In this document: positions 6,818 through 19,289 of the stretch, piece after piece | How the letters are laid out: each line of letters opens with the position of its first letter | Position numbering within the stretch: position 1 is the stretch's first letter | NCBI GenBank assembly: GCA_030916945.1 | Contig: JAUPVS010000006.1 | Location: 1 to 46,308 of the forward strand | Length of the DNA stretch: 46,308 nt | Source: Patescibacteria group bacterium | Lineage (GTDB): Bacteria; Patescibacteriota; Saccharimonadia; Saccharimonadales; JAUPVS01 | Direction of reading: 5' to 3' | Program-made: the position numbers and the translations under genes | Notes under the pieces: model-generated | What the model was told of the DNA's origin: nothing | The model's database searches: none | Seen by the model: only the letters and a program-made list of their open reading frames with translations

Positions 6818-7627
6818 ATGCAGAAGTTACTGAATGGTAAAGAATTAGCCGAATATATTCAAGAACGTCAAGCCCGCCAAGTGCGGGCTTTACGTCAATC
6901 TGGCGGCGTTCAACCTAAGTTGGCGATTGTCGTAACGGTCGACAACCCGGTCATCGAAGTCTATATGCGTCTCAAGCAGCGCTATGGGACTCAGGTTGGT
7001 GTAGATGTTGATGTGCACCGCGTTAAGCAGGCTGGTGTACCAGCCTTGCTAGACAAGCTTAATGCCGACGATACCATCCACGGCATAATTACCCAGCTGC
7101 CACTAGAAGATCCCAGCCAGACTGACGTAGCAGTTAATTTAGTTGCTCCAACCAAAGACGTTGATGCGCTGGGATCTAAGACGGTCTTTGAGCCAGCCAC
7201 GGCCCTGGCGATTATGTGGCTACTAGCCGGCTACAACATTGAGTTACGCGACAAACATATTTTGCTGATTGGTCGCGGTAAGCTAGTTGGAGCACCACTA
7301 GAAAAAATGCTCAAAGCTTCGGGTCTAGATGTCGAAGTGGCCGACCGTAACGTTGCCGACTTGAAAGCCGTTACCCTGCAAGCTGACATTATTATTACCG
7401 CCACTGGCAGTCCAGCCATCCTTTTCCCAGACATGATTAAGCCTAAAGCTGTCGTGGTAGACGCTGGCGTGGCCAGTGAGGACGGCAAAACCGTGGGTGA
7501 CCTGGATGTTAGTGTTTATGAGCGTGATGACATTGTAGTAACACCAGCCAAGGGCGGGGTAGGACCACTCACCGTCTGTGCCCTATTCGAAAATGTTATC
7601 CGAGCCGCCCGTGAGGTGGCTAGTTAA
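6818..7627 (+). CDS. folD: Bifunctional methylenetetrahydrofolate dehydrogenase/cyclohydrolase
   Basis: A 269-aa cytoplasmic enzyme that interconverts 5,10-methylene-, 5,10-methenyl- and 10-formyl-tetrahydrofolate for one-carbon metabolism. The catalytic lysine is K53 in YMRLKQ. The family signatures GIITQLPLED and DVDALG (normally D-V-D-G-F/L) follow. A Rossmann NAD(P) site is seen at LLIGRGKLVGAPLEKML, and the late PAKGGVGPLTVCALFEN motif is present. It is slightly shorter than typical FolD (about 280-300 residues). Its 3' end overlaps the convergent murL 3' end by 8 bases. The promoter gives a predicted leaderless message. Confidence 0.95.
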   Translation: MQKLLNGKELAEYIQERQARQVRALRQSGGVQPKLAIVVTVDNPVIEVYMRLKQRYGTQVGVDVDVHRVKQAGVPALLDKLNADDTIHGIITQLPLEDPSQTDVAVNLVAPTKDVDALGSKTVFEPATALAIMWLLAGYNIELRDKHILLIGRGKLVGAPLEKMLKASGLDVEVADRNVADLKAVTLQADIIITATGSPAILFPDMIKPKAVVVDAGVASEDGKTVGDLDVSVYERDDIVVTPAKGGVGPLTVCALFENVIRAAREVAS

Positions 7628-8903
7628 GCTTCTGTTGGAGTATTTCGTAGACTTCTGGCGGCATGTCGTGGGTGCCCAAGGCTCGGTAGTCGTAACTATC
7701 TGGTAGCTCAAACTCGTACTTGGATAGCTCAGGGTATCTATGTTGAGCCAGTCGCATAGCGGCTCGACTCTCCTTTATTTCTCCAACACATTCTAGAGGC
7801 TTATCACCGTCAATGCCTAGTAACTGTCGGTAGGTCTTATCTAGGCCAGGATCCTTAAGTAGGTTCTTGCCACTAAATAACGATTCTAGCTTTTCTTGGC
7901 TGACGAAAGGAGTTAAAGCCAAAAACACAAAGGCACATTTAGGGCACTTACCATCCCAAAAAAGATGCGTTGCATCATGTGTAAAGGCTTTATTGCATGA
8001 GCTAAAAACATCACTGTACTTGTCGAAACCCGCTTTGGAGAATTCCTCGGCTATTCTCAGCTCCGACAAAGGCCGAAGAAATGAATAATAGCGAACTGAA
8101 TCGGTACCAAAATTTGTGCCCAGGTACGCCTGGAAGCGCTTTTCAAAATCGGATGACTTTGAGTACTGGTGATTAACCGGCGTGTCCTTGACGTACAGCG
8201 TTGGTTCATTGGCAGACTGCTCGTTAGACACAATGACGTCTTTGTAGCCAGTTAGCAGGGCAACAATAACCCCAGTTGCTGCAAAGATGGCCGAGATGGG
8301 TACATGACCATTGTAAGCGCCAGTATTATTAAGGCTCAATAGTTGTTTGTCCCAACTTCGCTCTACCCAGAAATGGGGTAGACCAATTCTTTTAACGAGT
8401 GGTTCGAGCTGCTTGCGATGGTTGACGCTCCAAGTGGCAACTTTTGGCTGTTCGGCTAAGTACTCTGCCGACAGTAGTGAATCTTTGCCACCACCAATTC
8501 CCACAAGCATACCGCTAAGTTCACCGGGATCGAGGACTTTATCTAGAGTATTATCGCTAGGGAAGTTGATTGGCTTAAGGGGGTCAAGCTTGTTGACATA
8601 CATAAACTCGCCGAGACCCTTCTGATAAGTTTGTTCCAGAAACTCTGCCGTGGCTCGGCTAAGGCCATGGTGTTCGGTGATTATGGTTGGTGCTAGGTAG
8701 GCCTTGTAGTAGGAAACTCCAGCCAGTAAAAACAGACTTTCGCAAGCCTTGTCTAATGTCTCTTTGTTGTATTCTGCGAAAGGGAAGTCAAACCTAAAAG
8801 TCTCGCTAAAATTTAGCTTGTCATCAAAGCTATAGTTCAGGGTCAGTATTTTATTAACTGGGTTGAAAGCGTAATTCTTGAAGATGAATGCTTGGTAATT
8901 CAT
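7620..8903 (-). CDS. murL: UDP-MurNAc-L-Ala-L-Glu epimerase (MurL)
   Basis: A 427-aa protein resembling MurL, the ATP-dependent enzyme described in Xanthomonas that epimerises the terminal L-Glu of UDP-MurNAc-L-Ala-L-Glu to D-Glu. A phosphate-binding GIGGGKDSLLSAEYL motif (about residues 135-150) is clear. A Cys-containing region SSCNKAF...DGKCPKCAFVFLAL lies in the C-terminal half, as expected for this family (older annotations call it a hypothetical or endonuclease-domain protein). The start ATG overlaps the murD stop as ATGA, so the two are translationally coupled. This pairing supports the function: MurD adds L-Glu and MurL inverts it. I see no glutamate racemase in the window, but the rest of the genome is not visible. 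Confidence 0.87.
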   Translation of the reverse strand: MNYQAFIFKNYAFNPVNKILTLNYSFDDKLNFSETFRFDFPFAEYNKETLDKACESLFLLAGVSYYKAYLAPTIITEHHGLSRATAEFLEQTYQKGLGEFMYVNKLDPLKPINFPSDNTLDKVLDPGELSGMLVGIGGGKDSLLSAEYLAEQPKVATWSVNHRKQLEPLVKRIGLPHFWVERSWDKQLLSLNNTGAYNGHVPISAIFAATGVIVALLTGYKDVIVSNEQSANEPTLYVKDTPVNHQYSKSSDFEKRFQAYLGTNFGTDSVRYYSFLRPLSELRIAEEFSKAGFDKYSDVFSSCNKAFTHDATHLFWDGKCPKCAFVFLALTPFVSQEKLESLFSGKNLLKDPGLDKTYRQLLGIDGDKPLECVGEIKESRAAMRLAQHRYPELSKYEFELPDSYDYRALGTHDMPPEVYEILQQKLN

Positions 8904-10228
8904 AGAGCTAAAACCGCCTGCTTAAACTGATTGCCGCGGTCCTCAAAGTTTTTAAACATATCAAAGCTGGCAAATCCTGGTGTTAGTATAACGCTGCCAT
9001 TGGCTGGCATTGCCTCAAAGGCCTGGGTAACTATATCCTTCATTGTCTCGGCTTTCGATACACTATAGTTCTCGAATCCGGCTTTGCTAAGTGCTTCAGA
9101 TAGACGTTGGGCACTTTCGCCAATCAATAAGACTTTAGTCAATTCAGTCTGGTGTGCAGAAACGCTTTGCGCCAAACCAGATAAATCCAGCTGGCGATCA
9201 AAGCCGCCAAGAATCAGTACTTTATTACCACTAATTGCTTCGATTGCTGCACCGGCTGCTTCTGGGGTAGCGGCGAAAGAATCATTGTAGAAATTTGTGC
9301 TACCAATAGTGCGCACTAGCTCTAGGCGATGCTCCAGCCCCTTAAAATTGCGCACAACTTGCTGGATAATGCTGGGGTTTTGGCCGATGATCTGCCAGGT
9401 GGCGGCGATGGCGGCACAAACATTTTCAATATTGTGGCGACCTAGTAGGGCAATGTCGCTGGCTTGGCAAACGGCTACGTCGTCCATGTAGATGGTGTCA
9501 CCTTTAAGATAGGCGCCAGTGGTTTGCTTGGGCTCAGCACCTGGTCCGGGGACTTCGTAGCTGATGCGACTAGCGGCCGGTGAAACACTGACCACCTGCT
9601 GAGACTGGGCGTTATTGCGGTTGAACACCACAATATCAGTTTCGGTTTGGTGAGCGAACAGGTTTTGCTTGGCGTGCAGGTAGTCGTCCATGTCGGTGTG
9701 CCAGTTAAGGTGTTCTGGGACAACCATCAGGCAGACAGCAATGTGCGGTGAGTGTTTTTGATCGGATAGCTGGAAACTGGATTGTTCTAAGACCACCCAA
9801 TCGTTGGCTTGAATACCGGCCTCGAGCAGACTAAGCGCTGGTACGCCAATGTTGCCACCCAAGTGAACAGTCTGGCCGGCAGCCTTAAGTATTTCGTAAA
9901 TTAGCGTCGAAGTCGTGCCTTTACCCTTGGTGCCCGTGACCCCAATAATGTTTTTAGTCGGGCAGACCTTGTAGAACTCGTTAGTTACAGTAGTGACTTT
10001 AGCTAGCACTGTCGCATCAATATCGCTTGGTTTTAGGCCCGGGCTACGGACAATTAGGTCAAAACGATCGAGGCCCTTCAGGTAATCAGGCCCAAGCTGG
10101 CCATCCACACCTTCGGGAAGTACCAAAGCTTGGTTTTGGTCGCAAATAGTGATCTGGTTATCGGGTTTTTGCCAGTACTTTAGGGCGGCCTGTCCTTCGG
10201 CGCCAAATCCTAATAGTGCGATGTTCAT
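8900..10228 (-). CDS. murD: UDP-MurNAc-L-alanine:glutamate ligase (MurD, probably the L-Glu type MurD2)
   Basis: A 442-aa Mur ligase. The N-terminal Rossmann-like domain carries GFGAEGQAAL. The ATP-binding loop is GVTGTKGKGTTSTLI (about residues 98-112). Family marks follow: the QSSFQL segment, a HLNWH motif with downstream lysine (the carbamylated-Lys region), the NxxN-type LLGRHNIENVCAAIAAT, and a C-terminal domain with HRLELV, YNDSFAATPEAA and ILGGFDR. It catalyses the second amino-acid addition of the peptidoglycan stem peptide in the cytoplasm. Coupling to murL suggests it uses L-Glu rather than D-Glu (inference). It starts 9 bases after a receiver gene in the same direction. Confidence 0.93.
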   Translation of the reverse strand: MNIALLGFGAEGQAALKYWQKPDNQITICDQNQALVLPEGVDGQLGPDYLKGLDRFDLIVRSPGLKPSDIDATVLAKVTTVTNEFYKVCPTKNIIGVTGTKGKGTTSTLIYEILKAAGQTVHLGGNIGVPALSLLEAGIQANDWVVLEQSSFQLSDQKHSPHIAVCLMVVPEHLNWHTDMDDYLHAKQNLFAHQTETDIVVFNRNNAQSQQVVSVSPAASRISYEVPGPGAEPKQTTGAYLKGDTIYMDDVAVCQASDIALLGRHNIENVCAAIAATWQIIGQNPSIIQQVVRNFKGLEHRLELVRTIGSTNFYNDSFAATPEAAGAAIEAISGNKVLILGGFDRQLDLSGLAQSVSAHQTELTKVLLIGESAQRLSEALSKAGFENYSVSKAETMKDIVTQAFEAMPANGSVILTPGFASFDMFKNFEDRGNQFKQAVLAL

Positions 10229-10237
10229 GGATACAGT

Positions 10238-10609
10238 TTAAGCGCTGAGCTGCTTTTTGACCAACTCGGCAACCTGACGCGGCGTCATGTCGGCCTTAAG
10301 TATCACGGCCACGACACCCATCTGCTTAACGGCTTCAGGAATTTCTTGCTCACCCATGTTGGTAAGAATAACCACTTTAATGCTTTTACCCCAGGTAGTC
10401 TTGCGCATCTTGGCCAACATTTCATCGCCGTTCATCTCGGGCATCATCAGGTCGAGCAGAATAATATCAGGCTTCATGCTCTCGGCTAGTTCTAGACCAA
10501 TTTTGCCATTCTCGGCCGTTTCGACTTCGTAGCCTTCGGCCTCGAACTTAATGCGGTACATCTGCGAGATAGCTTGGTCATCTTCAATAATCGCAATTTT
10601 TGTTGCCAT
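10238..10609 (-). CDS. Receiver-only response regulator (CheY-like), paralog 1
   Basis: A 123-aa single REC domain with no output domain. The acidic pocket is E9/D10/D11, the phospho-acceptor D53 lies in LLDLMMP, the switch Thr is in VILTN, and the conserved Lys is in LKADMTP. It would relay phosphate or bind a partner protein. It is the first gene of an apparent operon with murD (9-base gap) and murL. It shares the unusual I/L-T-N...K-A-x-x-T-P ending with the two neighbouring receivers, so the three are paralogs. A TAGAAT box ends 6 bases before the ATG, giving a probable leaderless message. Confidence 0.92.
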   Translation of the reverse strand: MATKIAIIEDDQAISQMYRIKFEAEGYEVETAENGKIGLELAESMKPDIILLDLMMPEMNGDEMLAKMRKTTWGKSIKVVILTNMGEQEIPEAVKQMGVVAVILKADMTPRQVAELVKKQLSA

Positions 10610-10615
10610 AGGGTA

Positions 10616-10644
10616 ATTCTAGGTGAAATTTGCCCCAAGTACAA
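10616..10644 (-). promoter_or_regulatory. Promoter of the receiver-murD-murL operon
   Basis: On the minus strand TTGTAC (10644-10639), 17 bases, TAGAAT (10621-10616), then 6 bases to the ATG at 10609. No Shine-Dalgarno site. Confidence 0.72.
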
Positions 10645-10664
10645 TGGCCGACAAATAGATTTGC

Positions 10665-11042
10665 TTATAAAAGTATATCTTTAACAGCCTTTACCACTTT
10701 GGCGGGAGTGTAGTGGGCCTTAACAATGTATTGATCGTAGTGAAGTTTAAGGAACTTCTTGGGAGCCTCTTTTTCGTTGATGTTGGTCATGATTATTACT
10801 TTCATGTCTTTAGCCCACGACAACCGTTGCAGTTTTTCCAGCACGTCTTCGCCGCCAATAGTTGGTATTTTAATATCTAACAGTAGAACATCAGGGCGTA
10901 AACGAACCGCCATCTTAAGTGCTTGCACACCGTCCTCGGCTGTTTCGATTTGGATTCCCTCATTAGCAAATTTGAGGCGATACATTTCCCGTATCGCCTC
11001 GTCATCCTCGACTAAAAGTATCGTCTTATTTCTGGGCACCAT
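10665..11042 (-). CDS. Receiver-only response regulator, paralog 2
   Basis: A 125-aa single REC domain: acidic pocket E12/D13/D14, phospho-acceptor D56 in LLLDIKIP, switch Thr in IIMTN, and Lys in YIVKAHYTP. There is no output domain. It is closest to paralog 3, with which it shares the YIVKAHYTP ending. A TATTAT box lies just upstream; if that is the -10, transcription would start near the GTG codon directly after the ATG, so the true start may be GTG at 11039. It probably serves a hybrid or membrane histidine kinase; the nearest kinase is at 14.6-16.8 kb. Confidence 0.9.
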   Translation of the reverse strand: MVPRNKTILLVEDDEAIREMYRLKFANEGIQIETAEDGVQALKMAVRLRPDVLLLDIKIPTIGGEDVLEKLQRLSWAKDMKVIIMTNINEKEAPKKFLKLHYDQYIVKAHYTPAKVVKAVKDILL

Positions 11043-11109
11043 CAGATAATAGCGTGTCTGCCGGCAGAGTCAATCTTGCTTTTTTTGGCAAAACAACACT
11101 AGTAAGTTG

Positions 11110-11493
11110 CTATGACATAACTTCGCGCACAATATCAACGACTTGCGCAGGTGTGTAGTGCGCCTTAACTATGTAGCGGTCGACGTTGAGTAGGCGTAAG
11201 TTATGGGGCGCCTCGTCCTTACTTATGTTCGTTAGAACAATAACTTTAATTGCTGCGCCCCAATTTTTCTTGCGGAGCTTGGCCAGCATGGCTTCGCCAT
11301 TCATGATGGGCATTTTTAAATCTAATAGAATAAGGGTTGGCTTTTCGGCTTCACATAGCGCCAAGCCCTCTTGACCGTTGACGGCCGTTATGACATTAAA
11401 CCCAGACAGCGACAGTTTAAGTCGATACATCTCGCAAATAGCCGGTTCATCTTCGACGATGAGGATTTTTTGAGGTTGATTCTTACTGCTCAT
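11110..11493 (-). CDS. Receiver-only response regulator, paralog 3
   Basis: A 127-aa single REC domain: acidic pocket E14/D15/E16, phospho-acceptor D58 in LLDLKMP, switch Thr in VLTN and Lys in YIVKAHYTP. The frame is open upstream to 11595, but the ATG at 11493 is preferred: it begins MSSKNQPQKILIVEDE with normal receiver length, a G-run (GGGGG) sits about 10 bases upstream, and the upstream extension is not receiver-like. It is divergent from the 346-aa-frame gene, with about 145 bases between the starts. Confidence 0.88.
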   Translation of the reverse strand: MSSKNQPQKILIVEDEPAICEMYRLKLSLSGFNVITAVNGQEGLALCEAEKPTLILLDLKMPIMNGEAMLAKLRKKNWGAAIKVIVLTNISKDEAPHNLRLLNVDRYIVKAHYTPAQVVDIVREVMS

Positions 11494-11639
11494 GCTTGCA
11501 TAACCCCCGGTAATGTTACTTGACATTATACTCGTCTTATGATAGAATGCCAACAGTACTTTAGAAGATAGAAGCGTCCGCTCACATCTGTTCAAACAGT
11601 TGTTGGCGGCGCTTTTTGTCTATATTAAGGAGAAATAAT

Positions 11640-12656
11640 ATGAGCGCAACCGAACAATCCGGACGAACACCACTCGACGTCAACATGATGTTTCGTGGTG
11701 GCGAATGGCCTCCTGTCACACCTCAGCACCATGAAGTGGTCGTTGACTCTGTTATTTCTGAAACCCCCCTTGTACAAGAGTTTATTGGCGAAGTTTTACC
11801 AGTTGCTGTCGAAAAAGCTGCAGAAGACTCGACTCAACGCCTTCCAAGGGTTAGAGCCGTTGGCGCTGCTGTTATAGAAGACGTTAGTCAAAGTGAGCAC
11901 AAGGTCAAGACAGCATCGCTGTTGGCAGCCACGATTATTTCGCAAGCGGCCGACAGGGCACGCCTTTCGGTTATTCTGGTGCCTCACCTTGCAACCAAAG
12001 TTCTAACCGAGACCCAGTCTCCTACTCAAGCTGCAATTGTTGGCGCGGCAACTTATTTTGCATGGAGTGGTGCAACTGGTGAAATTCTTAACCGCGGTTT
12101 GAATCAACTACCCGGTGCTACCAAACAGTTTAAAGAAGAGTTCCCGGTTGTAGTTGATCTATTCCGTGACTCGCTGCCTGGTATGAACGACGATGCTAAA
12201 AATATACCTAATAAAACCGCCGAAGAAGAAATAATGACCGAAGCTATTGAGTCGGAAGAGATTCAAAAGAGGGCTAGTCGCATAGGTGCATTTATTTCCA
12301 AGCACGGTAAAAGAGGTGTAACTGGCGCGGCAATTGGTTCAACCGCCTTTGTGGCCACGGCTTCGGTTGATGGTTTTACAAGTCGGCAAAAGACCAAGTT
12401 GAATTTGTCGGTAGCGACCGACGCTTCGGCAGTTGTGGCCGGTGTGGTAGCAGGCGTGGGGCAGGCTCTTATGGAGTTGCCCAAGCATGGTTACTACTGG
12501 CAAGCTAAATATGCCAGTGACGTGGTGACCGACTTGCGTTTCTGGTATGCCCTTGCCGGTGCAAGCGTGGTTAGTGAATATGTTGATAACCGCAAGAAGA
12601 TGAAAGAGCTAGCCGAAAAGCATCACGATACGTTGGCTGTTCCTGAAGAGCAGTAA
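11640..12656 (+). CDS. Unknown alanine-rich hydrophobic protein
   Basis: A 338-aa protein from the ATG at 11640, chosen over an upstream in-frame ATG at 11616 because AAGGAG lies at 11627-11632. The N-terminal 90 residues are polar. Two blocks of weakly hydrophobic Ala/Val/Gly-rich helices follow (about 95-160 and 235-310), separated by a charged segment. It may be a membrane or membrane-associated protein, with the charged C-terminal helix in the cytoplasm. It ends 3 bases before the decarboxylase start and is likely co-translated with it. I do not recognise the family. Its place at the head of the decarboxylase-acyltransferase-kinase run makes a role in that system possible. Confidence 0.8.
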   Translation: MSATEQSGRTPLDVNMMFRGGEWPPVTPQHHEVVVDSVISETPLVQEFIGEVLPVAVEKAAEDSTQRLPRVRAVGAAVIEDVSQSEHKVKTASLLAATIISQAADRARLSVILVPHLATKVLTETQSPTQAAIVGAATYFAWSGATGEILNRGLNQLPGATKQFKEEFPVVVDLFRDSLPGMNDDAKNIPNKTAEEEIMTEAIESEEIQKRASRIGAFISKHGKRGVTGAAIGSTAFVATASVDGFTSRQKTKLNLSVATDASAVVAGVVAGVGQALMELPKHGYYWQAKYASDVVTDLRFWYALAGASVVSEYVDNRKKMKELAEKHHDTLAVPEEQ

Positions 12657-12659
12657 GTT

Positions 12660-13847
12660 ATGGTATATTTACAAGAATTAGTAAAACAAAAAGGCAAGAA
12701 CGTGCTAAAAAAAGAACAACAAGCTTGGATAACCAGACTAAAGGGCATGCCACACAAGACACCATTCATGGTGACTGACTTGGCTATTGTCCACGAGAAC
12801 GCCAAAGTTATTACAGAAGCTCTACCAAGAGTCGGTATTTACTACGCTATAAAGAGTAATTCAGATGAGCGTATTATCGAAACTATTGACCCGATCGTGG
12901 CTGGTTATGACATCGCTTCATTAGGTGAATACAAGCACCTAAAGAATTTAGGTGTTGCCAGTGAACGGATGCTGTACAGCAATCCGGTAAAGATCCCGGA
13001 ACACATACAGAAAACCTACGAGGGTGGTGTTCGTCACTTTGCCTTTGATAGCATGGATGAAATATCTAAGTTATCGACTTACGCTCCTGGTTCAGAAGTT
13101 TACCTGCGTATTAAAGTGTCCGACTATGGTAGCCGCTTCCCGCTTTCTAAGAAGTTTGGCGTCGACCCATTGCACGCTGTTGCCTATATGGATATGGCGG
13201 CCGAAAAGGGTCTTAAACCAACCGGTTTGGCCTTTCATGTTGGGTCGCAGTCAGAAAACCCGCACTCTTGGGCAGTGGCCTTCGAAACTTGTGGTGAGAT
13301 TATTAAGAAATTGTCAGCCGTTGGCATCGACATTAGCTTTATTAATATCGGCGGTGGTTTCCCTGCCTCTTACACGGAACGGATTAACTCACTTAAGCAA
13401 ATCGCCGACATTATTAATAAGTCGATTACCAAGCACATTCCAGACCATGTTAAGATTGTCGCTGAACCGGGACGTTTTATCTCGGCTACATCAAGCGTCA
13501 TTGTAACTTCTGTAATTGGGCGCGAAACCCGTGGTTCAAGCGACTGGTTGTTTATTGACATGGGTGTTTTCCAAGGCTTGTTGGAACCGCTAGAAATTGA
13601 CTCGTGGCGTTATCCAATCTTTACTAACTATGGTAAAAAGGCGGCCGCTTTTTCTAAAAGCTTTGTGCTAACCGGCCCAACCTGTGATGCCTATGACACA
13701 CTTGGTTTAGACTATGAGCTACCGTCGAACCTAAAAATGGGTGACAGGCTCTATATTGGTTCGGCTGGTGCCTATACCAAGGTATATGCCAGCAACTTCA
13801 ATGGTTTTAGCCCACCCAAGACCTATTACCTAGAAAATCAAAAATAA
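12660..13847 (+). CDS. Ornithine decarboxylase-like PLP enzyme (fold type III)
   Basis: A 395-aa member of the alanine-racemase-fold decarboxylases. The PLP lysine is K65 in YYAIKSN. FHVGSQ, INIGGGFP (phosphate-binding Gly loop) and AEPGRF follow. The catalytic-site motif is GPTCDAYD (C342, D343). The Cys-Asp pair is typical of ornithine/lysine decarboxylases, whereas diaminopimelate decarboxylases usually have Cys-Glu. The likely reaction is decarboxylation of ornithine (or lysine) to putrescine (cadaverine), but DAP decarboxylation cannot be excluded. It begins 3 bases after the preceding stop, and a TATAAT box lies in the 37-base gap before the acyltransferase gene. Confidence 0.88.
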   Translation: MVYLQELVKQKGKNVLKKEQQAWITRLKGMPHKTPFMVTDLAIVHENAKVITEALPRVGIYYAIKSNSDERIIETIDPIVAGYDIASLGEYKHLKNLGVASERMLYSNPVKIPEHIQKTYEGGVRHFAFDSMDEISKLSTYAPGSEVYLRIKVSDYGSRFPLSKKFGVDPLHAVAYMDMAAEKGLKPTGLAFHVGSQSENPHSWAVAFETCGEIIKKLSAVGIDISFINIGGGFPASYTERINSLKQIADIINKSITKHIPDHVKIVAEPGRFISATSSVIVTSVIGRETRGSSDWLFIDMGVFQGLLEPLEIDSWRYPIFTNYGKKAAAFSKSFVLTGPTCDAYDTLGLDYELPSNLKMGDRLYIGSAGAYTKVYASNFNGFSPPKTYYLENQK

Positions 13848-13850
13848 GCG

Positions 13851-13856
13851 TATAAT
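13851..13856 (+). promoter_or_regulatory. -10 box before the acyltransferase gene
   Basis: TATAAT lies right after the decarboxylase stop; AAAGGA at 13870-13875 is the ribosome site for the ATG at 13885. It would allow separate expression of the acyltransferase and kinase. Confidence 0.55.
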
Positions 13857-13884
13857 TTAAAACATAAACAAAGGAACAAACACC

Positions 13885-14604
13885 ATGGCACTAGAAGCAG
13901 TCGATCGCCCAGAAACCCAAGAGGACAAAATCGGACCTGGGCATGATGAGATTCTATTAATTACCGACCACCAAAGCGCTGAGTGGTTAGCCGCTCAAGG
14001 CGTAGAGGTTGATGTATTTATTGAAAAGGGCTACGTAAAAAATGCTGAAGAGCTTACCGCCGAATATGCTCCTTATGAAGACGCTAGCGTATTTATTGGT
14101 GTTAAGCGTCACGGTCAAACGATTGGTAGCGCTCGACTAACAACGCCCGACGAAAACGGCTTCAAGACAATTAATGATGCCCGCGCCGGCAAGCTCAACG
14201 TAACAGAGGAGGGCTGGGCATTACTATCTAAATTTGATCTTGATACCCAAGGTTTCGAAGTCGGCACCATGGCAATTAAAGATGGTTTTAGGAGTGGTCC
14301 GTTTGCACCAGATAGTGTTTCGGCTAGTGTCTACGCTGGTATCGTGTCTTACACCAAGAGATATGCCGATCAACAGGGTAGAGACGAGAGAGGCTTTGTT
14401 TTGGCCAGTTTTGATCAGCACTTCTTCGATAACTTTTCATCAGCGTTTGGGGAATCCGTCCAACCCCTGGGTCCAGAGCAAATGTATATGGGCTCACTGA
14501 CAATACCAGTTATTATTGATGTCGAAAAATTATTAAGTGATGACGTATCTGGTCTGAGCCCATTGCTCGAGTCCTTATCGCAGGCCACGCAATCGGATGT
14601 CTAG
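13885..14604 (+). CDS. GNAT-fold acyltransferase resembling LuxI / N-acyl amino acid synthases
   Basis: A 239-aa soluble protein. The arrangement is that of autoinducer-synthase-like GNATs: an N-terminal lead with a conserved F-I-E-K-G-Y segment, a strand GVKRHGQTIGSARLTTP (like the V-G-x-x-R-L strand of LuxI), then FEVGTMAIKDGFRSG (like the W-E-x-S-R-F-x-V segment). A helical segment SASVYAGIVSYTKRYA follows. The C-terminal part, LASFDQHFFDNFSSAFG, is like the acyl-pocket helix region. It would transfer an acyl group from acyl-CoA or acyl-ACP to a small molecule. The neighbouring amine-producing decarboxylase suggests an amine acceptor (inference). Its stop overlaps the kinase start by 8 bases, so the two are coupled. 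The family call rests on pattern only. Confidence 0.6.
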   Translation: MALEAVDRPETQEDKIGPGHDEILLITDHQSAEWLAAQGVEVDVFIEKGYVKNAEELTAEYAPYEDASVFIGVKRHGQTIGSARLTTPDENGFKTINDARAGKLNVTEEGWALLSKFDLDTQGFEVGTMAIKDGFRSGPFAPDSVSASVYAGIVSYTKRYADQQGRDERGFVLASFDQHFFDNFSSAFGESVQPLGPEQMYMGSLTIPVIIDVEKLLSDDVSGLSPLLESLSQATQSDV

Positions 14605-16762
14605 TGATGTCCTGATACTAGTTGTATCGGCGGCCTGTAACTTCTTGCTAAGTGCTTTCGTTCTATTTCGTAGCCCCAAGAGTACAATTAACCGCGTTTT
14701 CGCGCTGTTTGGCGTAAGTGTCATTACCTGGACAACCTTTAACTATCTAGCTGATCACGTGGTGTCGCATAGCTTAGTGTTTACGCGTCTTACCTTGGCG
14801 TTTGGGGTTTGTATTGGTGCTAGCCTGCTGGCACTTTCTTATATATTCCCACGTTCTATCAAGGTTTCTAAACGCCGACTGTACGCTGTTTACATATTTA
14901 GCTTTACAACGTTTTGCCTGTGTCTGTCGCCCTACTTTGTTGCTAGTGTGGTTAACACAGGTTCAAGGGCTGAGCTGACTACAGGTGCTCTTTATCCGGT
15001 CTTTATCGTTTATTTGTTACTAACATTGAGTTTAGTCATTCGCAATTATACTCGGCAGTTCAAGCAAGGGACTACTGTCGAACGTAACCAAATTAGACTC
15101 TTCCTAATTGGCATCATAGTTTACAGCGTTTTTGCGATTGGCTCTAACGTTATTTTGCCGCTCATATCTCAGGACTGGTCGAGTAGTAGTTATGGCCCAA
15201 TCTTTACTGTGCCATTCATTGCAATCACTGCTTACGCAATGATCAAGCACGGTTTATTTGATGTTCGCTTAGTTGTGGCACGATCGATCGCCTACGTACT
15301 AACCTTGCTGACAATTAGCACCATCTTCGTGCTGGTAGCCTTCGGGTTCCTATCGCGAATCCTTGGTACCGGTTCGTTGAGTATTGTTCAGCAGGTCCTT
15401 TATATCGTAATCGCGGTAGTAATAGCCTTGTCATTCCAAAGTGTTAAGTCATTCTTTGACAGAATTACGCGATCAATATTTTATCGTGATGCCTACGACC
15501 CGCAGGCCTTTCTGGACCAACTGAATAAAATTCTCGTATCAACTATTGATCTGGAACTGTTGCTCAATAACTCTGGCAAGGTAATCGAGAGTAATTTGAA
15601 AGCAGCTTTCTGTCTGTTTGTAGTCGAAGGTGTCGAGTCTGGTGAAAGAAGGATCTCCACGGACACTAAGCTAGAAATCAGTAAAGCCGATATTGAATCA
15701 ATAAAGCGCCATATGGCAAAGCGACGTAAGCGTATTGTGGTATCTGATAACTTAGAGGGCGAGCAAGAATTCCAGCGGCTACTTTCAAGCAATAACGTAG
15801 CCATAGTCGCCAAAATGGTTAACACTAGCAGCTCGGCAAGCCATAATGTTGGTTATCTCTTACTAGGCGTAAAGCGTAGCGGTAACCTCTATAACAAGCA
15901 GGATGTTCGGATGGTTGATATTGTGGTCAACGAACTAGTCATCGCCACCCAGAACGCTATGCGCTTCGAAGAAATTCAGAACTTTAACCTTACCCTGCAG
16001 GAAAAAGTCGACGACGCTACCAGAAAATTGCGCAAGACTAACGAGAAGTTGCGTCAGCTGGATGAAACTAAAGACGACTTCATCAGTATGGCTTCGCACC
16101 AGTTGCGCACGCCGCTGACATCTGTTAAGGGGTACGTTAGCATGGTGCTAGACGGCGACGCCGGTAAGGTGTCCAGTCAGCAGCAAAAGCTGCTCGACCA
16201 AGCCTTTATTAGCTCTCAGCGCATGGTCTACCTAATTGCCGACTTGCTAAACGTGTCGCGCCTTAAAACGGGTAAGTTTGTGATTGAAGCCAAACCAACC
16301 AACTTGGCCGAGGTTGTGGAGAGCGAAATGGAACAACTCAAAGAAACAGCCAAGGGCCGTGGGCTTAAGCTCGAGTACAAACAGCCGAAAGCATTCCCAT
16401 CACTTAACCTCGACGAAACCAAGATTCGCCAGGTGATCATGAACTTTACTGACAATGCCATTTACTACACGCCGAGTGGTGGTACGATTACTGTGAATTT
16501 AGAGGACAAGCCAGAAAGTGTTGAGTTAACAGTGGTAGATAATGGAATCGGCGTGCCCAAAGCCGAGCAGCATCACTTGTTTAATAAGTTCTATCGGGCT
16601 GGCAATGCCAAGAAGGCTCGCCCTGATGGTACTGGGTTGGGCTTGTTTATGGCTCAAAAAGTGGTGGTTGCCCAGGGTGGTGCCATCATCTTCCATAGTG
16701 AAGAAAACAAGGGTAGCACCTTTGGCTTCAGCTTCCCCAAGGCCAAACTCCTCGTTAAGTAG
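14597..16762 (+). CDS. Membrane sensor histidine kinase (multi-TM, GAF-like, HisKA, HATPase)
   Basis: A 721-aa kinase. The N-terminal half has about nine hydrophobic segments: seven in residues 4-217, resembling the 7TM sensor module of bacterial histidine kinases, and two more near 232-256 and 268-285. A GAF-like region follows (about 305-455), then a coiled coil (about 458-490), then HisKA with the phospho-acceptor H501 in SHQLRTPLTS. HATPase_c carries the N-box NFTDNAIYYTP, the G1 box DNGIGVP and the G2 box GTGLGLFMA. It phosphorylates receiver domains; three receiver-only proteins lie at 10.2-11.5 kb. Overlap with the acyltransferase gene suggests that kinase and enzyme work in one circuit. 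A weak hairpin (16761-16780) follows the stop. Confidence 0.93.
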   Translation: MSSDVLILVVSAACNFLLSAFVLFRSPKSTINRVFALFGVSVITWTTFNYLADHVVSHSLVFTRLTLAFGVCIGASLLALSYIFPRSIKVSKRRLYAVYIFSFTTFCLCLSPYFVASVVNTGSRAELTTGALYPVFIVYLLLTLSLVIRNYTRQFKQGTTVERNQIRLFLIGIIVYSVFAIGSNVILPLISQDWSSSSYGPIFTVPFIAITAYAMIKHGLFDVRLVVARSIAYVLTLLTISTIFVLVAFGFLSRILGTGSLSIVQQVLYIVIAVVIALSFQSVKSFFDRITRSIFYRDAYDPQAFLDQLNKILVSTIDLELLLNNSGKVIESNLKAAFCLFVVEGVESGERRISTDTKLEISKADIESIKRHMAKRRKRIVVSDNLEGEQEFQRLLSSNNVAIVAKMVNTSSSASHNVGYLLLGVKRSGNLYNKQDVRMVDIVVNELVIATQNAMRFEEIQNFNLTLQEKVDDATRKLRKTNEKLRQLDETKDDFISMASHQLRTPLTSVKGYVSMVLDGDAGKVSSQQQKLLDQAFISSQRMVYLIADLLNVSRLKTGKFVIEAKPTNLAEVVESEMEQLKETAKGRGLKLEYKQPKAFPSLNLDETKIRQVIMNFTDNAIYYTPSGGTITVNLEDKPESVELTVVDNGIGVPKAEQHHLFNKFYRAGNAKKARPDGTGLGLFMAQKVVVAQGGAIIFHSEENKGSTFGFSFPKAKLLVK

Positions 16763-16865: not shown

Positions 16866-18155
16866 ATGAGTGAGATTAATGAGATCAATTGGGATCAGGG
16901 TATGCCAGCAGCTCCACCAACTGCTGAATATGCTCATCTACCCCTTTCAGCTGAGCCAGTAGGCGCACCATTGTACAGCGCTCCCGAACGTCAGGCTTCG
17001 GCCGTTTTGACGAGCGGTCGTGTAAAAAAAGGCCTGGCAGGATTTGCTGGTTTAGCTGTGTTTGCTAGCGGTAGCGTTGTGGCAGCCAATATTATGACTG
17101 GCGGCGAAAGCGAATCAGCTAGTTCGCTACCCGACGTAGCTTTGGCACAAAATAGCGACTTTGAAGCCTGTGATGGCGAAGCTTTCACTAATGGTGCTTA
17201 CGAAGCTTCGTTAAATGTGCAGACTCCTGGTGACTTACACCGCGAGCCAGCCGAAACTCTTAAAGACACTCCATCATTAAACGAATATTTGTTTGGCGGC
17301 GAAGGCGTGGCTTGTAACTCGGCAATTACGCTGGCAGTTATCAAGACTTCAGTATTGAGCTTAAACGGCCAAGGCGCTGCCGAAGCTCGTGGCTTTGATG
17401 TCTTTGCAAGTGTCGACGAGCAGGCTCAACACTACGTTGACAACCCAGCTGACGCTCTAGAAGACGCCGACAAGCTCTCGGCCTATATACGTGTTGCAGC
17501 CGCTCTTAATACAGAAGAAGTCAAGGGTACCTACCTAAAGGTAGTTGGTGTTCAAGATGGCGAAATCGTAAGGGCAGAAGTGGCCCCAACCGACGTCAAC
17601 TTTGCTAAGGAAACAGTCTTCATTATCCGCAATGTTGGTGACAACGGCGATATCACTAATCAGATTTTCGTCTTTGACAAAGAAACCGGCCAAATTTATC
17701 TCCTCGAAAATATTGGCTTAAACGAACAACAGCCTGAACCAGAAGCTCAAGACCAAGAAGGTAACACCGGCGGTGGTTCTGGTGATACCGAAGGTGAAGG
17801 TGGTGGCGATGAAGAAGAGCAACACAATGGTTTAGAAAAGGGCTGTAATGGCTCGTGTGGTAGTGGTAGCAACAAGTCTGGCAACGGTACCGGTCAAGGT
17901 GCTGGTGGCCAAGGCGGCGGCCCTGGCGGTCAATGTGGCGGCGGCTGTGGTACGACTGGTACAACCCCATCGGGCGGTCCAGAAGAATCAACTCCTCCTC
18001 AGACAACCCCTAACACAGCTCCTCCAAGTACTGAGAAGCCTCCAACAACTAAACCTCCAGTAACCACTCCTCCGGTAACCACTCCACCACCAACCACTCC
18101 TCCGACAACTAAACCTAAGGGCGAAGAGCCAGTGGACCCAGACGCTCCTAACTAA
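16866..18155 (+). CDS. Surface protein with Cys/Gly-rich and Pro/Thr-rich tail
   Basis: A 429-aa protein. About 55 polar N-terminal residues precede one membrane segment (about 55-76), so it is probably a type II membrane protein with the rest outside. Residues about 95-285 form a folded-looking domain. An acidic Gly-rich stretch follows, then a Cys/Gly segment (CNGSCGSGSN, QCGGGCG) and a Thr/Pro tail built from TTPPVTTPP-like units, like wall-spanning regions of Gram-positive surface proteins. There is no LPxTG motif. The gene is followed after 21 bases by the LPATG protein and is probably co-transcribed with it. I do not recognise the extracellular domain. Confidence 0.82.
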   Translation: MSEINEINWDQGMPAAPPTAEYAHLPLSAEPVGAPLYSAPERQASAVLTSGRVKKGLAGFAGLAVFASGSVVAANIMTGGESESASSLPDVALAQNSDFEACDGEAFTNGAYEASLNVQTPGDLHREPAETLKDTPSLNEYLFGGEGVACNSAITLAVIKTSVLSLNGQGAAEARGFDVFASVDEQAQHYVDNPADALEDADKLSAYIRVAAALNTEEVKGTYLKVVGVQDGEIVRAEVAPTDVNFAKETVFIIRNVGDNGDITNQIFVFDKETGQIYLLENIGLNEQQPEPEAQDQEGNTGGGSGDTEGEGGGDEEEQHNGLEKGCNGSCGSGSNKSGNGTGQGAGGQGGGPGGQCGGGCGTTGTTPSGGPEESTPPQTTPNTAPPSTEKPPTTKPPVTTPPVTTPPPTTPPTTKPKGEEPVDPDAPN

Positions 18156-18176: not shown

Positions 18177-19289
18177 ATGAATATATTTACTCAACTATCA
18201 AAGAAAATCAGCACCGTAGCAGCTAGTCTGCTCATGGTTGGTATGATCTTGGCGCCGATGAAGGTTAATGCTTTGAGCATTCCTTACACTGGCGAGAATA
18301 CTCCACCAGCACCTTACCCTGCCTTTAACGTTTTCACTGGCACACCGTACAACGGTGACGAAAGTGACTTCTTACGCGGCAAGGTCGCCGGTGACACTGG
18401 TGACTCAAAGAACGTAGTCGACACCGCCTGCCAAGACGGTACTCGCTTTACGTTGCGTGTTTACGTGCACAACGGTGCATCGCAAGACCTAAACAATGGC
18501 GGTAGCGGCCCAAGTGTGGCTCGTGACGTCCGCGTTAAGGTTGGTGGCGTAACCGGAACAGGTACAAACTTTGTTCCTAACGCTACCATTAGTGCCAGTA
18601 ACGCCGGTACAGTAGCCGACGACATGCGCATTAACTGTACAAACGGTTCGCAGGTAACAATGAGCTACGTAGCTGGCACTGCTAAGCAGTACAGTAAGTT
18701 AAGCGGTACTCAAGCTGTCAGCGACAGCATTGTTACCACCGGCGCACCAATTGGTACCATGACTCCAGATGGTAACGTTTGGGGCTGTTGGGACCAACGC
18801 GTTTACGTAACGCTTGATGTTCAGGTAAAGAAGGTAACTCCTCCACCAGTTGTGTCGGAAGGTTCATGTAAAGTTGCCGACCTAACCACAGCCGATAATC
18901 GCAAGGTTACCGTTACTGTAACTGGCCAAACTAACAATGCAACTATTGTTGGTTACGAAATTGACTTTGGTGACGGCACCAAGTCGAACAAGCAAACCGA
19001 TACTCACACCTATGCCAAGGACGGTACATACACCATCTTTACTAAGGTCCAGGTTCGCTATGCTGATGGTCGAACCGAATGGAAGACCGCAACCGCTTGT
19101 ACCAAGCAAGTTACATTCAAGCCTGGTGTGCCACCAACAGTGGTTACGCCTCCGCCAACAACTCCAGCAACCGTAACTACCTTGCCAGCTACTGGTGCAG
19201 GTAGTGTAGCCGCTGTCTTTGCAGCCGCTACAGTTGCCGGTGCGATGGCTTACCGAGTGTTCATGGCCCGACGTCTCAGCCGTCAGTAA
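18177..19289 (+). CDS. LPATG-anchored surface protein with PKD-like domain
   Basis: A 370-aa secreted protein. The signal peptide is residues about 1-32 (cleavage after VNA). A beta-rich domain is rich in Gly/Thr/Asn (about 40-220), and a PKD/Ig-like domain (about 235-310) shows the typical DFGDGTKS ... HTYAKDGTYT pattern. A Pro/Thr linker leads to a C-terminal sorting signal: LPATG at about 336, a hydrophobic segment and the basic end ARRLSRQ. A sortase should link it to peptidoglycan; no sortase gene is in the window. AAAGGAAT lies upstream of the ATG. A strong terminator is found about 95 bases after the stop. Confidence 0.9.
   Translation: MNIFTQLSKKISTVAASLLMVGMILAPMKVNALSIPYTGENTPPAPYPAFNVFTGTPYNGDESDFLRGKVAGDTGDSKNVVDTACQDGTRFTLRVYVHNGASQDLNNGGSGPSVARDVRVKVGGVTGTGTNFVPNATISASNAGTVADDMRINCTNGSQVTMSYVAGTAKQYSKLSGTQAVSDSIVTTGAPIGTMTPDGNVWGCWDQRVYVTLDVQVKKVTPPPVVSEGSCKVADLTTADNRKVTVTVTGQTNNATIVGYEIDFGDGTKSNKQTDTHTYAKDGTYTIFTKVQVRYADGRTEWKTATACTKQVTFKPGVPPTVVTPPPTTPATVTTLPATGAGSVAAVFAAATVAGAMAYRVFMARRLSRQ

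Follow-up and report, generated by a model that had tools for sequence, protein, structure and literature searches.

The region analyzed here is the entire contig JAUPVS010000006.1 (46,308 nucleotides; hereafter, the window) of a Saccharimonadia genome (Patescibacteria; assembly GCA_030916945.1) that amounts to 860 kb and is 94.6% complete. Its subject is a putative chemical signaling locus. Three genes on the minus strand encode response regulators (RR1 to RR3), and four genes on the plus strand, divergent from these receivers, form a tight operon that encodes, in this order, a protein of unknown family, a decarboxylase, a 239-aa predicted acyltransferase, and a histidine kinase (Table 1). 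The seven open reading frames lie where an earlier description of the window based on its sequence (the original prediction) had placed them, and two details of their spacing given there are correct: the first operon gene and the decarboxylase gene are separated by 3 bases (12657-12659), and the acyltransferase and kinase genes overlap by 8 bases (14597-14604).

Table 1. Features of the putative signaling locus and its surroundings in the window
Feature	Length	Position	Strand	Basis or remark
folD	 	6818..7627	+	FolD family; adjoins RR1 in many relatives; chassis marker, across the receivers from the operon
RR1, receiver-only response regulator	123 aa	10238..10609	-	Response_reg 77.8 bits; the receiver adjoining folD in most relatives
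RR2, receiver-only response regulator	125 aa	10665..11042	-	Response_reg 77.1 bits
RR3, receiver-only response regulator	 	11110..11493	-	Response_reg 66.6 bits; start from minus-strand promoter-like site 11553-11525 and local sequence
Overlapping divergent promoter-like sites (suggestive)	 	11520..11553	both	TTGACA-17-TAGAAT on +, TTGGCA-17-TATAAT on -; 11/12 matches each
First operon gene, unknown family	338 aa	11640..12656	+	Start ATG 11640 preceded by AAGGAG
Predicted PLP-dependent fold-III amino acid decarboxylase, ornithine/lysine type	395 aa	12660..13847	+	Orn_Arg_deC_N 172.5 bits
Predicted LuxI/FeeM-superfamily GNAT acyltransferase	239 aa	13885..14604	+	AlphaFold2 model, Foldseek, profile links
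7TM-type sensor histidine kinase	721 aa	14597..16762	+	Membrane sensor ~1-280, GAF-like region, HisKA with H501, HATPase_c

The gene order recurs in other Saccharimonadia and is therefore not a product of chance. In locus L132, from the Saccharibacteria metagenome-assembled genome RYN_418, the decarboxylase (56% identical), acyltransferase (33%; E 1e-34), and kinase (40%) are encoded in the same order, the acyltransferase and kinase genes overlap as they do in the window, and the set is followed by a gene for a response regulator with a DNA-binding Trans_reg_C domain. In several families, sets of acyltransferase, kinase, and receiver genes adjoin folD, so that the conservation of the neighborhood, on which the original prediction had been made to depend, is borne out.

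The decarboxylase appears to be a pyridoxal 5'-phosphate (PLP)-dependent enzyme of the ornithine/lysine type. It contains a second domain of the ornithine decarboxylase family (49.9 bits), and in a profile of 12 homologs, the PLP-binding lysine (K65), the EPGR motif (from E269), and the aspartate of the C-D motif (D343) are invariant, with C342 at least 90% conserved. The profile of this family scores 328 bits against lysine/ornithine decarboxylase versus 209 bits against diaminopimelate decarboxylase, and the nearest solved structures are lysine/ornithine decarboxylases. An enzyme that acts only on diaminopimelate in lysine synthesis, with no link to the kinase, is thus disfavored, and identity with LysA was rejected: the score for TIGR01048 is 177.5 bits (cut-off 297.9), the profile prefers the ornithine/lysine type, and no diaminopimelate epimerase was found in the 94.6%-complete genome. 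The 12 homologs are 36-57% identical to the window protein; of these, 8 have such a kinase next to them, 3 sit at contig ends that truncate the neighborhood, and the remaining one, in G036, lies in an operon with speE (spermidine synthase; 163 bits) and a strong SpeD (140 bits), a spermidine-type context that fits a diamine-producing role of the family. The PLP decarboxylase was rejected as a marker of the system in other phyla: in most of the other phyla scanned (Thermotogae, Chloroflexi, Synergistetes, Actinoplanes), its homologs lack these neighbors.

For the 239-aa protein, structure prediction and fold search yielded a predicted fold of the LuxI-like kind that had been anticipated. The AlphaFold2 model (pLDDT 80.8; pTM 0.79) has a predicted GNAT fold, and Foldseek against PDB ranked FeeM, an N-acyl amino acid synthase (2g0b), first (E 5.9e-7; TM 0.72 on the target), followed by the acyl-homoserine lactone (AHL) synthases BjaI, LasI, and MesI. 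Profile comparison ties the protein to the FeeM-like (97.8%) and LuxI-like (92.3%) families of sister loci, in which some proteins exceed the Pfam thresholds for FeeM and Autoind_synth (L056 and L108 for FeeM); the L132 homolog passes PF13444 (26.7 bits). The modeled fold and its nearest structural neighbors place the protein in the LuxI/FeeM superfamily as a predicted member, and we did not file it as an AHL synthase (LuxI proper). Because it is paired with an amino acid decarboxylase, its acceptor is probably an amine rather than an amino acid or S-adenosylmethionine. Scanning the genome collection with the acyltransferase alone found nothing, because its conserved short stretches are too few, and a PDB profile search with its alignment gave chance matches only, so that the fold search was needed instead; a fold search against viral proteins returned only generic GNATs and one phage AHL-synthase-like protein.

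The kinase is a membrane histidine kinase, as originally described, and belongs to the seven-transmembrane (7TM) type. It contains HisKA and HATPase_c domains, a simple hydropathy scan detects eight hydrophobic segments, and H501 is invariant in an alignment of 13 homologs. The 7TM assignment comes from these segments and from the homolog at L047, which, unlike the window kinase itself, matches the HisKA_7TM profile (42 bits; cut-off 28.6). The description of the three minus-strand proteins as receiver-only also stands (Table 1), and homologs of RR1, 55-82% identical, occupy the same position in relatives.

Of 295 Saccharimonadia genomes, 203 encode the N-terminal family of this kinase, which also occurs in dozens of Patescibacteria that belong to other classes. 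Across the 79 kinase neighborhoods surveyed, a conserved receiver and folD commonly accompany the kinase, and the genes immediately upstream of it vary in kind. The 7TM kinase and the receiver beside folD constitute a conserved chassis on which the upstream small-molecule enzymes are interchangeable. Amine cassettes encode a decarboxylase, usually with a GNAT-fold or GNAT-like transferase; other types combine LuxI/FeeM with ThiF, a UbiA prenyltransferase with a methyltransferase, or a PaaK-type ligase with ThiF, aminotransferase, or tryptophan-dehydrogenase-like genes, and a further type is ABC/FtsX. At least five cargo types occupy the kinase locus within a single genus (g15), and in about half of 20 loci from other Patescibacteria classes, the genes directly preceding that of the kinase include ThiF, FeeM, PaaK, or UbiA.

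Amine cassettes employ three unrelated decarboxylases, namely, the PLP type, a SpeD-like pyruvoyl enzyme, and pyruvoyl arginine decarboxylase (ArgDC). The SpeD-like enzyme, encoded beside the kinase in 10 genomes, was assigned from PF02675 matches (40.9 and 38.8 bits; cut-off 25), and a PDB profile search with this family found no match to S-adenosylmethionine decarboxylase; ornithine and arginine decarboxylases have arisen within the SpeD-like family (PMC10407285). In 10 of the 19 genomes that encode ArgDC, its gene is no more than 3.2 kb from that of the kinase (chance placement, ~0.7% per gene). A second transferase family of amine cassettes is a predicted tandem GNAT (pLDDT 86.5). Non-homologous replacement of the decarboxylase would otherwise be hard to explain and suggests that the amine is what matters.

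Several further features of the cassettes were observed. A family of small membrane proteins (~90-160 aa) with motifs such as 'NPWIFL' and 'APYVYV' adjoins cassettes in L056, L062, L064, L079, L086, L092, and L103 and is fused to the acyltransferase in some loci, for example, at its C-terminus in L053; the scanned member (L056) had no Pfam match, and the family is a candidate exporter or partner. The first operon protein of the window was considered as a homolog of this family (U141/GN4C), and no homology was found. In L073, L083, L105, and L113, a tryptophan-dehydrogenase-like enzyme (in L073, 295 bits to the ScyB model, cut-off 600) and a PaaK-type ligase are encoded beside the kinase, and the product of these cassettes is possibly derived from tryptophan. 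Contigs filed under Psychroflexus (L138) and Nitriliruptoraceae (L193) carry cassettes with a decarboxylase and a tandem GNAT, together with the kinase in L138; they probably represent transfers or Saccharibacteria that were mis-binned.

The sensor half of the kinase shares its history with the enzymes. Cargo labels, under a scheme of our own, were assigned from gene content before tree building, and the trees compared are quick trees. For the 26 loci that have folD, the fewest cargo changes required were 4 on the tree of the sensor (kinase residues 1-305), compared with 10 on that of the kinase domain, 13 for FolD, and 12 for RR1. For all 50 labeled loci, the sensor tree required 5 changes, against a minimum of 4 and a mean of 28.5 after shuffling, and the kinase tree required 22; the relation was reversed for changes of taxonomic family (17 on the sensor tree, 4 on the kinase tree). 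After removal of sensors at least 45% identical, the cargo changes were 5 versus 18. In a sliding scan along the kinase, the association with cargo holds over residues 1-200 (7 and 5 changes), is weaker over 201-300 (14), and is near chance in segments beyond residue 250 (20-26), and is thus limited to approximately residues 1-250. Given these opposite patterns, the kinase is one gene with two histories: the membrane half follows the enzymes and the catalytic half follows the organism. Such a switch inside a gene argues for selection that keeps sensor and enzymes together.

On the sensor tree, the window protein is nearest to that of L070, which has a pyruvoyl-decarboxylase cassette, and its relatives L074 and L077, and then to the sensors of SpeD cassettes; pairwise identities agree with this placement in part, L085 and L082 ranking between these two groups. 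The sensor halves of L091 and L095 form a very long shared branch (1.72) among the SpeD-type sensors, although the acyltransferase belongs to the same family, and the ligand has possibly changed in these two loci.

We consider it reasonably probable that the window locus is a self-contained chemical signaling cassette in which an N-acyl-diamine-like signal is both made and sensed. Everything beyond the class of the decarboxylase and the fold of the acyltransferase, from the product and its export to ligand binding, phosphotransfer, and output, is inferred as follows. The ornithine/lysine-type decarboxylase would make a diamine of the putrescine or cadaverine class, one amine of which would be acylated by the LuxI/FeeM-like enzyme, and the product would be released and bound by the 7TM part of the adjacent kinase. 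H501 would then serve as the phosphate donor to at least one of the three divergent receivers or, in L132, to the OmpR-type DNA-binding regulator encoded directly downstream. The kinase half with its RR1/folD surroundings would serve as the conserved chassis and the biosynthetic genes with the 7TM half as an exchangeable block, so that different Saccharibacteria might use different molecules with one relay, in the manner of ComQXPA pherotypes.

Several observations weigh against this interpretation. The acyl donor is its largest difficulty: searches of the 94.6%-complete genome returned no acyl carrier protein (ACP; PF00550), AMP-binding acyl-CoA ligase (PF00501), or CoaE, and the donor may accordingly be host-derived or of another kind, such as the aminoacyl-tRNA used by some GNAT-fold relatives. 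The 239-aa protein reaches none of the curated cut-offs of PF21926, PF00765, and PF13444, scoring 12.5 bits for PF13444 where 22.4 are needed. The nearest relative, G102, lacks the decarboxylase; the receivers of the window have no output domain; and no exporter was identified. Furthermore, the swap of a block between conserved flanks would link sensor and enzymes in any case, and their co-inheritance is not proof of ligand recognition.

An alternative is metabolite feedback, in which the kinase senses a product or precursor of an internal pathway, such as one that keeps polyamines or amines in balance, and the receivers adjust this pathway with no cell-to-cell signal. Both decarboxylases and transferases have metabolic roles, amines of the putrescine type are general metabolites, the same decarboxylase family occurs in the spermidine operon of G036, and receiver-only outputs suit local control. 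We nevertheless regard feedback as unlikely: the enzymes that partner the kinase at the same locus within one genus or family (prenyltransferase, LuxI with ThiF, PaaK-type ligase, and amino acid dehydrogenase) share no pathway, and variation in them is accompanied by variation in the membrane half of the kinase; both observations fit signals better than one housekeeping pathway. Still less likely, in our estimate, is envelope modification, whereby the enzymes would make membrane lipids containing amines, amino acids, or prenyl groups and the 7TM kinase would monitor the membrane. LPG_synthase_C, UbiA, and CMAS-type methyltransferase genes in some cassettes point in this direction, as do the murD and murL genes adjoining the chassis and the inclusion of ornithine-lipid acyltransferases in PF13444; however, the fold of the window enzyme matches FeeM and AHL synthases rather than lipid acyltransferases, a supply of acyl-ACP or acyl-CoA was not found in the genome, and the near-perfect sorting of sensor and enzyme types would not be expected of general membrane sensing.

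An effector directed at the host cell or at competitors, with the kinase reading the response of the host or, only as a monitor, the molecule itself, seems improbable: Saccharibacteria are host-dependent and the acyl donors would need to come from the host, but nothing in the sequence points to a host target, and the pairing of sensor with enzymes suggests that the product itself is sensed. Hitch-hiking of functionally unrelated enzymes and kinase in one recombining block between conserved flanks is very improbable, since, even though linkage alone can give contiguous segments one history, the point at which the history changes is internal to the kinase gene, where the membrane part ends and not at the gene start, unrelated folds of the same predicted chemistry repeatedly lie beside the kinase, and the acyltransferase and kinase genes overlap in both the window and L132.

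The signaling cassette that we favor is closest in organization to ComQXPA of Bacillus, which shows the same evolutionary pattern with peptides (PMC4008528). In both cases, a signal-making gene lies beside a multi-transmembrane kinase with a highly variable N-terminal half and a conserved kinase half (PMC4008528), a receiver or regulator is encoded nearby, and several communication types occur among close relatives; here, too, the synthase and the variable sensor half are inherited together on a conserved kinase half. The differences are that ComX is a prenylated peptide, whereas a small molecule is predicted here and the chemistry itself changes between cassettes, and that the receivers, except in the relative L132, lack a DNA-binding domain. 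The operon encodes a decarboxylase and a GNAT, with neither a ComQ-type isoprenyl transferase nor a ComX pre-peptide and no prenyl synthase among its genes, so the window locus is analogous to ComQXPA and not a member of it. FeeM and the AHL synthases (LuxI and BjaI) share the predicted fold of the 239-aa protein and differ from it in sequence (15-16% identity), in the decarboxylase partner, and in that the genome yielded neither an ACP nor an acyl-CoA ligase.

In Saccharibacteria, the only literature on this system that we found is the survey of Bernard et al. (2020), which reported 18 LuxI homologs and 51 CqsA homologs next to sensor kinases in genomes of the candidate phyla radiation (PMC7567580). 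The same kind of bacteria and the adjacency of a LuxI-fold synthase to a sensor kinase are common to that survey and the present locus; its main text mentions no decarboxylases, and the parts used here describe neither interchangeable cassettes nor a sensor/kinase mosaic. The original proposal of one linked, undescribed signaling set is supported in part, through the predicted GNAT fold, the recurrence of the genes, the ornithine/lysine type of the decarboxylase, and the co-inheritance of sensor and enzymes on domain-level trees; the word "undescribed" has to be softened, because the adjacency of LuxI homologs and kinases had already been reported (PMC7567580). Of the two roles that it suggested, sensing of kin and sensing of the host, the present results favor neither. 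For the sister cassettes, acyl-oxazolone clusters may offer a lead: in Mycobacterium, FeeM-like, ThiF, and nitroreductase genes make acyl-oxazolones (tyzABC; also oxzAB clusters; PMC10404671), and a FeeM-like acyltransferase, ThiF, and a nitroreductase-type protein likewise come together in the LuxI-ThiF and PaaK cassettes of relatives. The part of that report used here describes no kinase with those clusters, and the window cassette itself has neither ThiF nor a nitroreductase.

Among the remaining features of the locus, the first operon protein has no Pfam or NCBIfam match and has relatives in L074, which belongs to the same sensor clade, and in L091. It had been called an unknown hydrophobic protein; the family is indeed unknown, but the protein is only weakly hydrophobic, with one marginal membrane segment by the hydropathy scan that gives eight for the kinase. 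Its gene most likely starts at ATG 11640, which AAGGAG precedes, and this corrects the earlier start. RR3 most likely starts at ATG 11493 and not at TTG 11595, because two overlapping back-to-back promoter-like sites lie at 11520-11553; these sites are suggestive only, the total of such sites in the region being no higher than in shuffled sequences. Between folD and the receivers, the window encodes murL and murD (7620-10228; MurL epimerase 333 bits, under the cut-off of 700; MurD 332 bits, over the cut-off), a pair also present in L053 and L055, which suggests that some members of the class make peptidoglycan by the L-Glu epimerase route. Directly 3' of the kinase, two predicted surface proteins are encoded (16866-18155 and 18177-19289), the second of which carries an LPATG-like motif and a hydrophobic tail at its C-terminal end. 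Relatives of this second protein (30-38% identity) adjoin or lie near the kinase in L047, L048, L050, L058, and L059, and it may, for this reason, be an output of the system.

More tentatively, with confidence somewhat short of even, we propose a modular pheromone platform common to Saccharibacteria and probably to much of Patescibacteria, in which matched synthase-plus-sensor cassettes of at least five chemistries would be exchanged on a single kinase/receiver chassis and would create communication types within a genus, with the window cassette making a new class of signal, an N-acylated diamine, possibly with acyl groups of the host. How host-dependent Saccharibacteria sense kin or host is a largely open question, and a chassis with matched cassettes would supply a concrete, testable signal for each strain. 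It would also imply many undescribed molecules of acyl, prenyl, and oxazolone-like types and a form of pherotype swapping that goes beyond peptide sequence, in which the chemistry itself changes. Because recognizable acyl-donor genes are missing, the signal may be built from material of the host.

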